Below are positions 3,001 to 29,082 of a stretch of 29,082 nt of DNA, piece after piece. The notes under the pieces were generated by a model. The model saw only the letters and a list, made by a program, of their open reading frames with translations. It made no database searches and had not been told where the DNA came from. Positions within the stretch are counted from its first letter, which is position 1. Every line of letters begins with the position of its first letter. The position numbers and the translations under genes are program-made. Source of the stretch: a virus; the IMG/VR virus record IMGVR_UViG_3300037189_003935, positions 1 through 29,082 of that record; one strand, written 5' to 3'.

Positions 3001-5481
3001 CTCTACTTGTTGAGCAGGAGTTCCGTTTTTGAGAATTTCATCAATTGTTAAAACAAGCTGTGGCTGGGCTTTGTCTGCCTGAGAAACAAATACTTGTTGT
3101 TGAAGACTCGCAGGAAGTTGTGGCAACTTGTCTTGCAAGTAGGCATCCATGCCTTTCTTGGCGTTAACAGCCATTGCTTTCTTTTCTTTTGAAGTAAATG
3201 AAACAACATTAGTTCCACTGCCCATCATTGCTCCCAAAATACCAGACTTGAGAATATCGAAAACAAATCCAGTTTTCTCCATTTCCTTTCTAGCTTCTGG
3301 GGAGTTATTTAAGTAAGCATCAATTGTTGTGGATAATGCCGTATCAAGCATCTCCTCCAGCCCTTCGCTAACACCACTAAGGGCAACAGCGCCAATGTAT
3401 CCACCAATACCCTCCTTGGCTACTTGACCACGGATTGCATCAGCAACACCTTTAGATAGCGCCGATCTTGTAGCTTTATCAGAAACAATATCTTTGAGTC
3501 CAGCAGATATACCTTTAGTTGCCGAACGTCTAGCGAGAGTATTCTTTACAGCTTGCCCAAGTCCAACAGTTGTCTCAGGAGACATTAAAACTTTCTCAAC
3601 ACCTGGAGCAACCATGTTCATAAGAGACATGGCAGTAAATGTAGCAAGTCCACTAGCGGTGGCTTTGCCAGTTGCTTCAGCTAATGCATCTTCTTTACTT
3701 AATCCCTTATTAATTGCCTCTCCATAAGCAGTAGAGAGGGCTTGACCAGCAGAACCGAATGATCCCTGAAGAGATGTAGCCAAAAGATTTTCAGCAGCCT
3801 TTACTTTGGATGAGTTAGTCCACAAGGAAATAGCAGCTTCTTTCATTTGGGTTGCAGACCGAGTAATAACACCAGCTCCTTGTTTAGCTGCAATTTTCTC
3901 AGCGGCTTTGGCTCCACCAGCTTTCAGTGCTTGAGCAACTGTCATTTCAGCAGCAGCGGTCCCAGCTTTTGCTCCAATGCCTATGGCACGACTAAGACCA
4001 GCAGTTGCAAATGTTTCCGCAACTTGACCAAGCAATGAATAAATATCCTCATCAGTTACGTTAATTTGACCAATGCTAAAAGCTTTGTTGATTCCGCCTT
4101 GATACTTAGCATTGGCTTGCAGAATTTCACTAGACGTAGCTCCAGCTTCAGCCATGGCAGTTGTTCCTCTTCTTGCAACATCTTCAACGCCCTCCATTCC
4201 TAGTTTGTCAGCAACATAACCTACAGCGCCAAGAGCGAGTGTGCTTGCGCCAATAGCAGTGTTCTGGAATGAATTGATTGTTCTAAGTCCAATACGTTTA
4301 AGCGAAGAAGCAAAATAAGATTGATCTTTGGAGTAAAATGGATTTTCTTTTAGAAACTCATAAGCAGTTTTATTCGACTCCGCATATCTCTGCATTGCCT
4401 CATCGCCACCATCAGCAATCCCAAATGTAATTGTTTCGGCGGCTAAAGAACCAGTGTATTGCTCCTGAAGAATCTTGGATGCTTCCTCCTCAAAGTCGCG
4501 TCTAAATGAAGCTAGAAATCTTGCTTTGTCAGCAGCTGGCATTTTCAAAGATTTAACAGCTTCTTCAAATTGATTGATATCGGTAATCTTTTCATAGTTG
4601 ATTACTGGTTCGCCATTGTAAGTATCAACAAGCTTATCACCAAGTTGCTTTTCTTTTGCGTAATAGCCAAGCGCATCAGTATATTCCTTCTTGGCTTGCT
4701 CATCAATAATAGGATCATTGCTCCCATTGATTTTCTTTTGCAATTCAAAGTTGCCATCAGTTGGTGCTGAGTCCCTTAGAGAGTTGCGGATTTCTACAAA
4801 CCTTTCAGGAGTAATGTTTTGAATATTAACATCCTCATCATCCAACTCATTCTTTCTCTTGTAGGCCTCAATAACGCTAGATACGTGGTCACGCCCAAAG
4901 ATTTCTTTATTGGACAACTCATATTCACTAGCACCATAACCATTCTCATCGGCCTGACGTTTTTGTTCGGAGCGATTTTTAACTGGGTCATAAGGAGTAA
5001 GGAATTTACTTCCAAATGCTGGTTCACGTTTTCCTGTAAGTGGGTTAAGAACAAACCCACCATCTTCGCGCTTCTGAGCCATTCCAATCATTTCCAAGCT
5101 ACTGCTGTAGGTATGCAAACCAGCATTGGTTAATCTACCGCTCAGAGACGCAGGAACTTGTTTTACCTCGCCATCAATAACAGCTGGAACTGTTGCATCG
5201 GATTGAAGGAGTTTATTGTAGTAATCGTCAGAAATTTTTTTTGCCGTGTCTTCTCTTGATTGTGGATTATTTGCCCATTCATTAGAGTCAAACATCTTAA
5301 ATGGATTCAATGAGTCAGAAGGCTTAATGCCATAATCAGCATAAGTCTCTGGAACAAAATCATCCTTCTCTTCTTCTTTAGTTGGCTCAACTGGCGTTGG
5401 TTCATTGAGGTAGGCATATTTGCTGCCTTTTTCAAAAGTGATGAAACCCTTCTTGTTTTCCGTGCTAAATGGATCGGTCAT
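1..5481 (-). CDS. Giant putative internal virion/ejection protein with HExxH metallopeptidase motif (partial, C-terminus outside window)
   Basis: The frame is open from the ATG at 5481 to base 1, giving 1,827 residues with no stop, so the C-terminus lies outside the window. What can be seen: a charged N-terminal part (about 1-390); an Ala/Gly-rich, partly hydrophobic region (about 390-755); a Pro/Thr-rich linker (about 840-910); a globular part (about 930-1200); a Lys/Pro/Glu-rich linker (about 1204-1261); then HELFH at 1348-1352 followed by AIE. FMEVMRAF around 1403-1410 contains E1405, a possible third zinc ligand of a gluzincin-type site. The gene follows two coiled-coil genes with only a few bases between them. 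Position at the end of the structural block and multidomain make-up resemble the giant ejected or polyvalent proteins of podoviruses. That role, and a zinc protease activity, are inferences. The reading frame itself is certain. Confidence 0.85.
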   Translation of the reverse strand, partial: MTDPFSTENKKGFITFEKGSKYAYLNEPTPVEPTKEEEKDDFVPETYADYGIKPSDSLNPFKMFDSNEWANNPQSREDTAKKISDDYYNKLLQSDATVPAVIDGEVKQVPASLSGRLTNAGLHTYSSSLEMIGMAQKREDGGFVLNPLTGKREPAFGSKFLTPYDPVKNRSEQKRQADENGYGASEYELSNKEIFGRDHVSSVIEAYKRKNELDDEDVNIQNITPERFVEIRNSLRDSAPTDGNFELQKKINGSNDPIIDEQAKKEYTDALGYYAKEKQLGDKLVDTYNGEPVINYEKITDINQFEEAVKSLKMPAADKARFLASFRRDFEEEASKILQEQYTGSLAAETITFGIADGGDEAMQRYAESNKTAYEFLKENPFYSKDQSYFASSLKRIGLRTINSFQNTAIGASTLALGAVGYVADKLGMEGVEDVARRGTTAMAEAGATSSEILQANAKYQGGINKAFSIGQINVTDEDIYSLLGQVAETFATAGLSRAIGIGAKAGTAAAEMTVAQALKAGGAKAAEKIAAKQGAGVITRSATQMKEAAISLWTNSSKVKAAENLLATSLQGSFGSAGQALSTAYGEAINKGLSKEDALAEATGKATASGLATFTAMSLMNMVAPGVEKVLMSPETTVGLGQAVKNTLARRSATKGISAGLKDIVSDKATRSALSKGVADAIRGQVAKEGIGGYIGAVALSGVSEGLEEMLDTALSTTIDAYLNNSPEARKEMEKTGFVFDILKSGILGAMMGSGTNVVSFTSKEKKAMAVNAKKGMDAYLQDKLPQLPASLQQQVFVSQADKAQPQLVLTIDEILKNGTPAQQVEALANLGNVAAVNAFAPPASTTPTGGGTTPSGTTTQAPTATTGATATTTGTTPAPTGGTTTTPTAAPTATGSPTLAGNTTNPEPTIASDNSPSMPDFGNIENESFYDAVKSLGLSGSNANGENWQAHGTDQESSVLSILEDGPKTSDGATFFTGPITGSSVGGVNTKINAKYLIVGKKGTKIANKDEIAGVVVNPQSNESKAAYEKRLSDVRAKLEPLGHTVFTPRDYANYVSANKSNEKQTQTTESAPKLFTISGTTGTQVKIKAPVESESELANYAYEQAHGKSIPAGKLAPTKKEVLTGGKANRYNVTSYSIDGKPADLHSIEVDKDGNPVKAGSAEETTTLFATKEKLTSLLGLSTRSQGLLESTNEFADVATEVQPQKTKTPEKKELVPEKQEPKGKPTPKAEVESKPKESAQPEAPVEKVELKVVSKNKFVEGEEKLSARQKTSVSKFSKTVEKVGGKIVVVDTEADANEYLKSIGVKPNAMPSAAFALLSDGKPVIVLIKKSLDKYGDIDTAIKHELFHAIELQFMQTSEGRKLYNDVDLDSVVKRKDLIAFMEKEYSPDFASLDSNVAFMEVMRAFIAGKIHKETFTYTPFAKYFEAFIKYLKKIVGRDKELNRYATALEKAYLNAIKGNEEAFGLKAASSEKFKGFMSSVVDKAKNLVKSSAKTGSAIQTGIATDDDINELVSDAQIEIANAYNESANANDIFNLVANMIEERLIGVGTGLSVASKLKAYREILGELNDDASTEELRALFQGKIDRLNTDKSPVIAMPANQLPDTKPIEKKLGVAGWSGIRRFVTGVREDGMTQAKSIKEIAQTKGDELPFTNAFIADEIDKETGKYPDRDLKFGDALESLDSNGVVNGYLIYSHSVETVNPETKVKYMAHRFMKSPVLKQNGKISPFFSVRQSQYAREFYEMVTDSNVINTMFKPTSEGVMIDSPEGLVKLVFNSLTSNRTVGTDGKTPEAFLKQGDKSIKFADVFQFVTGDNKDGTSPFY

Positions 5482-8871: not shown

Positions 8872-10779
8872 TCACAGCTCAATATTTGTCCAACAGGCGT
8901 TCGCCCCATTTTGGTAATACAGTGGTTTAGCCAATCCTTTTCTGGTGATTCCATTGCTTTGGCAGTATTTTGCTACGGCTACATCAATTGGTATTTTCAG
9001 ACTTAATGCCAGTAATCCACATTCGTGCATCATAATCGCGGCTTCTTTGTTGTAGTAAATAACTGCATGGGTTCCGCACATTCCATCCATGTCAATCAAC
9101 CCATCACAAACAACTGGCGGATTCGTCCATAGTATGCCCTTCTCCTTATTTTCCACAGTGTATTGAGACAATCCAACAAACAGCCAATCAACAGGCGCAT
9201 TAGGCATAATTGCTTCAAAAGATGTCCTTGTGGCATCCTCTTCTAAAACCAGACACGGATATTGCCCGTTTTCAATAATCGTCATCATTGCTCGCATGTG
9301 AGCCATTGTTGTGCCTTCCACCTTGTTTCCAGTCATAACTGGATTGATTGCTACCTCATTTGGCCTCGCATTTTTGGGGCTACATATTCGGTAAGTAGCC
9401 ATTCCCGTATTTGACTCATTTTCACTTACAGCTAGCAATCCATGCCTGCGATTGATTTCCAAAAACCTTGGAATCCATTTAACCTTAGAGCTTCCTCCCT
9501 TGTGCTTAAATGCTGTTTTTGCAGGAGGATTGGCTCCAGCTACGTGCATTTGAGGATGAAACCATTCTGTTGCTATGCCCAATTCGTGAAGAGCCACAAC
9601 AAGCAACTCCTGATCCCCTTCGCTCTTAGGAAATCGAAACTTATTTTGTGTATACCACAGGGAAAGTTTTTGCGCTTCTTCCCGTTTCCACTTTACAACG
9701 CCAGTGCAAACATTCTTAACATTTGTAGGTAGATTCATTTCATCCTTGAGCTTGTTGCTGAACTTACTGGCATTAACGCAAACGTGTAATGTTTTGGGAT
9801 ACTCTTCAAATATGTTGGTAGCATTATTTGCGATTACTAAATCTGAATCAACCCAAGCAAATTCTGTCCCATCCTCATAAACCAAACTCGCTGCAAAAGC
9901 ATCAAACAAAACCCATTGAGGATTAGCATCTTTGCATTTGGGCAATTCAATCAAATCAGCATCACATTTTTGTGCAAAATGCTTAATTCCCGACTCACAC
10001 CATCTCCAGACTCTTTTATCGCACCCTTCGTGGCATGTAAAAAGAACGCGATTGCTTGCTGCTTTCCTCGGAGCAATTGAAACAATTTCGTCAATATTGT
10101 CAATTTTTTCATAAGGAGAAGGATTGGGAAATTGGCTTTCTAGCCATGAAATTAATTCGGGCGTCATTCCTGCATCACACCAATTTACAAATATTCTATC
10201 ATTTGTAGGTGCAGCACGAAAGGCTCCGTAATACTGCGCAACTACATTAGAAGACTGCCATGGAGCGTTACGCTTACTTAAAATCCATGTTTCGAATGGA
10301 AACTTTCCAGACATTCCTGGCCAATCAAGGAAGGACTCGTCAATCATTCCCTTGTCAAAAAAATATGGGCCATGGGGAGTGCTGTAGTCTCTATCAACAA
10401 ACCCCTCCCGCGCAAGGCGATCTCTAACCTTTAATAGGCTTCCCATCCAAGATGTTCCTGCGGCCTTTCTATTTTCCTTTGCAGGAGCCAATTTGATTTG
10501 CTCAATGGTTTGATCTTTAATCAATACGCAGTCATCATACCACCAAGAAAAGCCACTGGGATATGCTTCTGCGGCCATACATAATGCGGTTTTGAGGCGA
10601 CCACTGGTTTGCTTAATATGGGTAACGCCTTGAACCCAGCTAGGCAACTTAGGGCCAACAATGGCTATTTCATATTCACCTTGCAAGTGTTCATGCAACC
10701 CTCGCAAACAAAAACGTAATTCTGTTCCATTTCTAAATTTCCCAAAACAAGGACTATATGGTATTACAATTGTATGCAT
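8872..10779 (-). CDS. Three-part glycosyltransferase-like protein with C-terminal GT25-type domain (635 aa)
   Basis: Three segments can be distinguished. Residues 1-220 begin with a beta strand (MHTIVIPYSP) and contain FSWWYDDCVLI, with an acidic pair at 82-83. Residues 243-430 contain TEFAWVDSDLVI, with a DxD-type motif at 311-313 typical of metal-dependent GT-A nucleotide-sugar transferases. Residues 460-635 carry the pattern of family GT25: MAHMRAM at 492-498, LVLEEDA at 510-516, GTHAVIYY at 569-576, and a late acidic IPIDVAVAKYC. Phage glycosyltransferases modify DNA, virion proteins or host surface sugars. The position among virion genes favours decorating the virion or the cell surface, but the acceptor is unknown. 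No signal peptide is seen. The GT25 assignment is the firmest of the three. Confidence 0.7.
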   Translation of the reverse strand: MHTIVIPYSPCFGKFRNGTELRFCLRGLHEHLQGEYEIAIVGPKLPSWVQGVTHIKQTSGRLKTALCMAAEAYPSGFSWWYDDCVLIKDQTIEQIKLAPAKENRKAAGTSWMGSLLKVRDRLAREGFVDRDYSTPHGPYFFDKGMIDESFLDWPGMSGKFPFETWILSKRNAPWQSSNVVAQYYGAFRAAPTNDRIFVNWCDAGMTPELISWLESQFPNPSPYEKIDNIDEIVSIAPRKAASNRVLFTCHEGCDKRVWRWCESGIKHFAQKCDADLIELPKCKDANPQWVLFDAFAASLVYEDGTEFAWVDSDLVIANNATNIFEEYPKTLHVCVNASKFSNKLKDEMNLPTNVKNVCTGVVKWKREEAQKLSLWYTQNKFRFPKSEGDQELLVVALHELGIATEWFHPQMHVAGANPPAKTAFKHKGGSSKVKWIPRFLEINRRHGLLAVSENESNTGMATYRICSPKNARPNEVAINPVMTGNKVEGTTMAHMRAMMTIIENGQYPCLVLEEDATRTSFEAIMPNAPVDWLFVGLSQYTVENKEKGILWTNPPVVCDGLIDMDGMCGTHAVIYYNKEAAIMMHECGLLALSLKIPIDVAVAKYCQSNGITRKGLAKPLYYQNGANACWTNIEL

Positions 10780-13607: not shown

Positions 13608-14423
13608 TTATTGATTAAATAGTTTTTTGGCTGCATCAAGCATTGCGTAATCTTCTGGAGTCATTTGTTTTTCTGTTACTTTCCAACCTTTTGGAAGAAT
13701 ACGAGATTTAACATCATCTTTTTTAACAGATATTTCAGCATCTAAAATTTCAGACATTTCTTCCAAAGCTTGCTGTTTTTCACTATTAATTCCATTTGAG
13801 AGACCTCTTAATGTTGCCCCACCAAAAGCTATTGGTCTTTGGCTTACATATTGCAATGCCTGTAAAAACAAATCAGCGCCTTCAAGGTTGGAGTCAACCA
13901 TTTTCCCCATTCCTTTATCTGCTTCCGCTCTATATTCCGAGTCTCCTAATGCTCTTACAGCATCTCCAACCCATAATGCTTTTTCAACAATATCAGAGGC
14001 TTTGCTTATTGGAGCTAATTTATTTAATGCTTTCCCTGAAATAGAAGAAGTTTTCAAGTTAGGACTTGCTGCCCCAAGAGCTAATCCAAATTGCATATTT
14101 TGCAATGCATCATTAGATTGCTCGACTTTTTGAACCACTTCTTCAAATTTATTGTATGGAGCTATAAAGGACTCCCCAATATCTGGAGCTTGATTGATTT
14201 TGCTCATTAACTGAGATTTTCTTAAATCTACAGAAGGCTTGCTTACGCTTACTGCGTTTTTCGCTAAATCAGTCGGAATAACTATACGTGGAGAAATGAT
14301 TTCATTATTTTGAAATGGAAATTTAGAAGAAGTAGCTTGCTTTTTATCAAGAACAATGCGAGGCAACTCGTCAGCTTTATTAACTGATTCCTTTAACAAA
14401 TTTATTGCCGTAAGTTTTCCCAT
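13608..14423 (-). CDS. Hypothetical protein (271 aa), possibly virion-associated
   Basis: No family recognised. The first 85 residues are polar and extended, with many Pro, Ser and Lys. The middle (about 85-215) is helical and Ala/Leu/Gly-rich (QNMQFGLALGAASPN, then a helix around ADLFLQALQYVSQ). The end is charged and helical. The ATG at 14423 lies 19 bases after the 3' end of the tRNA and has no Shine-Dalgarno sequence. The tRNA and this gene probably share the transcript that starts near the palindrome at 14539. A 40-base gap follows before the 414-aa gene. Confidence 0.75.
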   Translation of the reverse strand: MGKLTAINLLKESVNKADELPRIVLDKKQATSSKFPFQNNEIISPRIVIPTDLAKNAVSVSKPSVDLRKSQLMSKINQAPDIGESFIAPYNKFEEVVQKVEQSNDALQNMQFGLALGAASPNLKTSSISGKALNKLAPISKASDIVEKALWVGDAVRALGDSEYRAEADKGMGKMVDSNLEGADLFLQALQYVSQRPIAFGGATLRGLSNGINSEKQQALEEMSEILDAEISVKKDDVKSRILPKGWKVTEKQMTPEDYAMLDAAKKLFNQ

Positions 14424-14442
14424 ATCAATTAATTTGAAGATT

Positions 14443-14520
14443 TGGTTGCGGAGATGGAATTTGAATCCATATGCTTCACGTTATGAGCGTGACGTCTTAC
14501 CAATCGACATTCACCCCGCT
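14443..14520 (-). tRNA. tRNA-Met-like, CAT anticodon, initiator-like features
   Basis: A 78-base cloverleaf with encoded CCA. The anticodon arm is TCACG / CTCATAA / CGTGA, the five-base variable loop is AGCAT, and the T arm is ATGGA / TTCAAAT / TCCAT. The acceptor stem pairs GCGGGG with CTCCGC, leaving an A-A mismatch at position 1-72, and the 3' end is CCGCAACCA as in bacterial initiator tRNA. The D stem TGTC/GACG gives a purine-pyrimidine pair at the position of initiator 11-24. Against an initiator identity, the anticodon stem lacks the three G-C pairs. The acceptor-D linker is longer than usual by two or three bases, so the D arm is slightly irregular. It may be an initiator-like, an elongator Met or a lysidine-type Ile tRNA. 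Confidence 0.88.
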
Positions 14521-14561: not shown

Positions 14562-14834
14562 CTATTCATCAAGTCTTGGATTGCTTAATGTTCTTTTGAC
14601 ATTTTGGGGATAACTGTAAATTGAAATTCGATTGCCATCTAATACGGCCTTGCGCCTATTTAGTTCTCCGATATTCACCATGCGAGTTAATTTTGATCTA
14701 GCCGCGCATTCAGTAATTTCAATTCCCGAATTACGCAATTCCTCGACATACTCAGGAACAGTGAACTCATTAGTTCCTACAACATTCTTTTGGGCTAGGC
14801 GAACAAGCTCTTTTAGTAATGCTTTCTTTTTCAT
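14562..14834 (-). CDS. Winged-helix DNA-binding-like protein (90 aa)
   Basis: A small basic protein. Residues 23-60 read as helix-turn-helix (FTVPEYVEELRNSG, then EITECAARSKLTRMVNIG), and residues 60-76 as a beta wing (RRKAVLDGNRISIYSYP). This is the layout of winged-helix regulators, although many such small proteins are poorly characterised. Its ATG overlaps the metallophosphoesterase stop as ATGA, so it is translationally coupled. It is the last gene before the palindrome and tRNA, so it could act on late promoters. That link is speculation. Confidence 0.65.
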   Translation of the reverse strand: MKKKALLKELVRLAQKNVVGTNEFTVPEYVEELRNSGIEITECAARSKLTRMVNIGELNRRKAVLDGNRISIYSYPQNVKRTLSNPRLDE

Positions 14835-28937: not shown

Positions 28938-29082
28938 TCCATCGTCGTTTGGGCGACGTTAAACAGACATTAAGCCCAAAGCGTCCTATCACCGCAAGGT
29001 GATGGGGGTTGCGTCAGCGTCATGTGCTGACCACGTAGTATCTGTGTGTGTAGAGCGACAGCTCTCCCTTGCACTGCATTGC
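28938..29082 (+). ncRNA. Candidate structured RNA region with several hairpins and a possible pseudoknot
   Basis: Perfect short hairpins occur in series: CGTCG/CGACG (28943-28958, loop TTTGGG), ATCACC-GCAA-GGTGAT (28988-29003, GNRA loop), GTCAGC/GCTGAC, and AGAGC-GACA-GCTCT. The first hairpin's loop TTTGGG can pair with CCCAAA at 28975-28980, making an H-type pseudoknot. No known RNA family is recognised and no protein gene fits. The region is cut by the window edge, so it may be a 3' UTR, riboswitch-like leader or free RNA. Confidence 0.4.

Follow-up and report, generated by a model that had tools for sequence, protein, structure and literature searches.

Three G-C pairs in the anticodon stem (G29-31:C39-41) are taken as a conserved mark of initiator tRNA. 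These pairs serve the passage from the 30S to the 70S complex, and formylation is served by a 1:72 mismatch together with G2-C71, C3-G70 and A11-U24 (PMC7949028). A tRNA-fMet without the three pairs can initiate in E. coli if formylation or the host initiator is limiting (PMC7949028). A UA/CG/AU mutant of E. coli tRNA-fMet, altered at the three pairs, was formylated and bound IF2, but was inactive in initiation and disturbed ribosome biogenesis and maturation (PMC10486304). Phage initiator tRNAs are already known, as in T5 (AY543070), where tRNA-fMet is annotated as an initiator. In the proposal of Van den Berg and colleagues, phage tRNAs stand in for host tRNAs that anticodon nucleases have cleaved; the authors also noted that phages generally avoid tRNA-fMet genes where VapC targets tRNA-fMet (PMC10264068).

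Results

The window, the stretch of DNA analysed here, is a whole virus record of 29,082 bases. Its sole tRNA match, found with an initiator model and Rfam, is an initiator-like tRNA of 78 nt with an encoded CCA at 14443-14520; the coordinates and the CAU anticodon given by the first-pass annotation were exact, and the gene is on the minus strand (14520-14443). It sits within a 138-nt gap of a minus-strand gene run that includes endolysin and tail-assembly homologues. The upstream gene (14562-14834, minus strand) encodes 90 aa and has an 85-aa gene at the syntenic place in a 61-kb relative, G006. The downstream gene (13608-14423, minus strand) encodes 271 aa, had no family match and no relative among the viral contigs, and is absent at the same place in G006. 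Megablast with the window did not find a similar phage. In a simple scan, no Shine-Dalgarno (SD) match was present upstream of 24 of the 26 window genes. Bacteroidota usually have SD-free starts and would fit the window as its host, a possibility that is unproven.

At the far end of the window, a Pistol self-cleaving ribozyme was found at 28943-29013 (plus strand, 63.4 bits); the structural genes are on the other strand. Two relatives have Pistol at the corresponding position (L005:9453-9523, L007:9453-9523 (-)). Two others have a type-P5 twister ribozyme at the Pistol site (L008:9450-9503 and L009:2543-2596, both minus strand), where one ribozyme class appears to have been exchanged for another. 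A lone tRNA-Arg (TCT) was observed elsewhere in one of these records (L008:1600-1674, minus strand).

Read 5' to 3', the tRNA begins with A1 (14520), which faces A72 (14447) unpaired, as had been annotated. The 5' strand of the acceptor stem, G2-G7 (GCGGGG, 14514-14519), pairs with CUCCGC (14448-14453) with one G-U, and is followed by the linker UGAAU (14509-14513), by the D-arm GUC-GAUUGGUAA-GAC (14494-14508; 3 bp, G18G19 present in the Rfam alignment) and by a single G before the anticodon stem and loop, UCACG CUCAUAA CGUGA. The 20-nt anticodon arm, GTCACGCTCATAACGTGAAG, spans 14474-14493, with CAU at 14485-14483 followed by A37 and A38. The variable region is AGCAU, and the T-arm (14454-14470) reads AUGGA-UUCAAAU-UCCAU, in which A53-U61 replaces G53-C61; G53 was invariant in the 36 initiator sequences used for modelling, but two members of the elongator set had A53-U61. 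After the acceptor 3' strand come A72, A73 and CCA, so that the CCGCAACCA 3' end of the first-pass annotation is present.

Relative to the features of bacterial initiators, the tRNA has G2-C71 and C3-G70 and lacks both A11-U24 and the three G-C pairs; the earlier statement about the missing pairs was borne out, positions 29-31:39-41 being ACG/CGU. The purine-pyrimidine pair assigned earlier to 11:24 was not recovered, since this position is U11-A24, a pyrimidine-purine pair, in both the Rfam alignment (best D-stem GUC/GAC) and the initiator-model register. All stems of a canonical tRNA are present, the D-stem with 3 bp, but the linker at positions 8-9 has 5 nt, 3 more than the usual two, which agrees with the irregular D-arm linker noted at first pass. 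The 5-nt linker, U11-A24, U15/U48 (the Levitt pair is lost) and C46 make for a weaker tertiary core than usual, and free folding favoured a non-cloverleaf structure (-22.4 vs -19.8 kcal/mol). No tRNA was called by ARAGORN at 14443-14520.

Covariance models were used for class assignment. The initiator model (36 sequences from viruses and cells, T5 and BL57 among them, with the window tRNA left out) matched the tRNA over its full length at 59.3 bits (E=3e-12), and the runner-up in the window scored 10.1 bits. Scores were 42.9 bits on the elongator Met model (23 sequences) and 31.8 bits on the Ile2 model (23 sequences), whose training sets were split by our own 4:69/5:68 rule and may have a few misplaced members. 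The Rfam tRNA match was local, covering positions 10-63 only, with 38.7 bits, above the gathering score. Because the initiator model also outscored the elongator model for some non-CAU tRNAs, the score margin alone is not proof, and initiator class was assigned from the margin together with the anticodon, CAU, and the mismatch at 1:72.

We searched for the anticodon arm in its tRNA context with the pattern GTCACGCTCATAACGTGAAGN8TTCRAAT, exact matches only. Matches came from 23 other viral contigs (viral_contigs) and from none of the 84,980 bacterial and archaeal species of genome_contigs, a contrast on which the different size and sampling of the two collections bear. A looser ACG-stem pattern was found in 0 of 395 Bacteroidota genomes. 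The general initiator pattern was found in 125 of 148 Bacteroidota genomes, with GGG/CCC in nearly all among the matches listed. Merging identical and near-identical copies reduced the 23 contigs to about 16 distinct tRNAs, including two without an encoded CCA (L318, L331). Position 1:72, which was not a selection criterion in the arm search (another viral pattern had a fixed A72), was mismatched in 13, G-U in 2 and U-A in 1, compared to a mismatch in 4 of 239 non-CAU tRNAs of viral loci. The kind of mismatch varied (A.A, C.A, U.U, A.C, G.A). These viral tRNAs (L155, L317-L338) thus share with the window tRNA an identical arm and a mostly mismatched 1:72; they differ from it in that A11-U24 is retained in all members tabulated, in that they are called by ARAGORN, and in that several lie in tRNA arrays, adjoining another CAU tRNA. 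Most members of the viral initiator-like set likewise lacked the three G-C pairs. We found no earlier account of the virus-restricted arm in the literature.

Two other viral loci were of note. One contig, L125, carries three CAU tRNAs (1326-1399, 3975-4048, 9345-9416), of which two are initiator-like and differ from each other and one scored best on the elongator model. An initiator-like tRNA at L153:6496-6571 (minus strand) has a D-stem region longer by a single base and is the nearest seen to the enlarged linker of the window. A search pattern modelled on the irregular D-arm with GCGGGGTG matched 10 contigs; on reading, the CAU arm of the window was in none of them, and these were set aside.

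Among described tRNAs, T5 tRNA-fMet resembles the window tRNA in lacking a Watson-Crick 1:72 pair (U.U), in its GCGGG acceptor, in an anticodon stem without GGG/CCC and in scores that all lie within 3 bits (58.6, 42.3 and 29.2 bits on the initiator, elongator Met and Ile2 models, T5 itself being in the initiator training set). It differs in its standard-length linker, its anticodon stem (CUAGU/GCUAG) and its location in a large tRNA cluster. The top-scoring match in the phage collection (E=0.005), tRNA-Met of Caulobacter phage BL57 (L057:1474-1552), is likewise initiator-like, with CxA at 1:72 and no GGG stem, but has an A11-U24 D-arm and a UGG stem and belongs to a 225-kb phage. Bacterial tRNA-fMet shares the acceptor end, the T-loop UUCAAAU and the CAU anticodon with the window tRNA; in contrast, it has A11-U24, a 2-nt linker and, nearly throughout the Bacteroidota sample among the matches listed, GGG/CCC.

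Discussion

Initiator descent of the window tRNA, as proposed at first pass, is well supported by the model scores, by its initiator acceptor end (the A1xA72 mismatch with G2-C71 and C3-G70), by the CAU anticodon and by the arm shared with other viruses. We give about an even chance to the reading that it is an initiator-class phage tRNA whose lineage is carried by viruses, that it probably adds to the initiator pool of the host and that, with its unusual D-arm, it is possibly decaying. Processing of the transcript would give a mature tRNA, which the host methionyl-tRNA synthetase would charge and which would be at least partly formylated; when the host initiator runs short during infection, this tRNA would occupy ribosomal P sites as an additional or substitute initiator. 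Loss of GGG/CCC would lower P-site selection when the host initiator is plentiful and would be of less consequence at vacant P sites. The same loss may alter how VapC and other anticodon nucleases of the host recognise the tRNA. The viral set is most simply read as a source of replacement initiators. Against the reading of the window tRNA stand the missing ARAGORN call, the weakened tertiary core, the non-cloverleaf free fold and the UA/CG/AU mutant, which is reported inactive in initiation though formylated (PMC10486304). The suggestion that the tRNA biases initiation toward phage mRNA is unsupported, since SD-free starts are also usual in the possible but unproven host group and a free tRNA does not discriminate between phage mRNAs without an SD and those of the host.

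Activity of the window copy is probably reduced by its extended linker and inverted 11:24 pair, and early-stage decay is possible. The caveat about decay in the first-pass annotation was reasonable, as G006 holds what looks like a decayed remnant. Genes on one side of the locus are 72% and 67% identical in G006, and the gene on the other side is 52% identical. G006 has a gap at the syntenic place, where the 3' flank of the tRNA (14424-14442, minus strand) is near-identical (L306:4996 onward; 0/2000 shuffles). Just before this flank is a match to the 3' half of the tRNA that is weak alone (46/2000 shuffles) and stronger beside the flank (1/5000), and is probably a decayed 3' remnant. No tRNA model fired at this gap, and no tRNA was found in the 61-kb G006 record. 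Window-gene homologues run off one end of the G006 record and resume at the other (L306, L308). The arrangement looks like that of a circularly permuted genome that is nearly complete, and the window may cover about half of a genome of this kind.

Together with the odd linker, the lost Levitt pair and the lack of an ARAGORN call, the G006 locus is consistent with a remnant of a once-working initiator-like tRNA whose function was already lost through linker insertion and core changes. We regard this as possible but rather unlikely, because the tRNA still encodes CCA and, compared to L155 as the assumed ancestor, has 12 differences outside the D-arm yet retains 16/16 pairs in the acceptor, anticodon and T stems through compensated changes. 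Only 0.06% of 200,000 random-substitution trials kept 16/16 pairs, a rough figure given that paired insertions could account for the 12 differences with fewer events. Somewhat more tentatively still, a virus-restricted initiator lineage may have swapped the near-universal GGG/CCC for ACG/CGU and been used as the phages' own start tRNA, perhaps resistant to nucleases, with the window tRNA as a further remodelled member (elongator-type 11:24, expanded linker).

A mismatch at 1:72 disfavours binding by elongation factor Tu. Conversion to an elongator methionine tRNA would account for the elongator-type flip to U11-A24 and the stem without the three G-C pairs, but is improbable, as A1xA72 is kept and the elongator model is 16 bits worse. 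We consider similarly improbable a decoy or interfering initiator that would be charged, formylated and bound by IF2, would initiate poorly, and would disturb host ribosome maturation or absorb anticodon nucleases. The E. coli tRNA-fMet mutant is formylated, binds IF2, is inactive in initiation and disturbs ribosome biogenesis (PMC10486304), and it has C30-G40 in common with the ACG stem; however, the role is a predicted one for one lone gene, whose stem differs from the tested mutant at 29 and 31. A lysidine-type tRNA-Ile2 would fit the CAU anticodon with A37 and A38, yet is very improbable: Ile2 was the lowest-scoring model, and 4:69 and 5:68 are both G-C rather than the C4-G69 and C5-G68 by which our Ile2 set was selected.

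The recurrent viral set with a 1:72 mismatch and without the three G-C pairs provides natural variants for testing what these pairs do, and for asking whether phages bring a start tRNA of their own. How far a D-arm can drift before function is lost is the question raised by the window copy.
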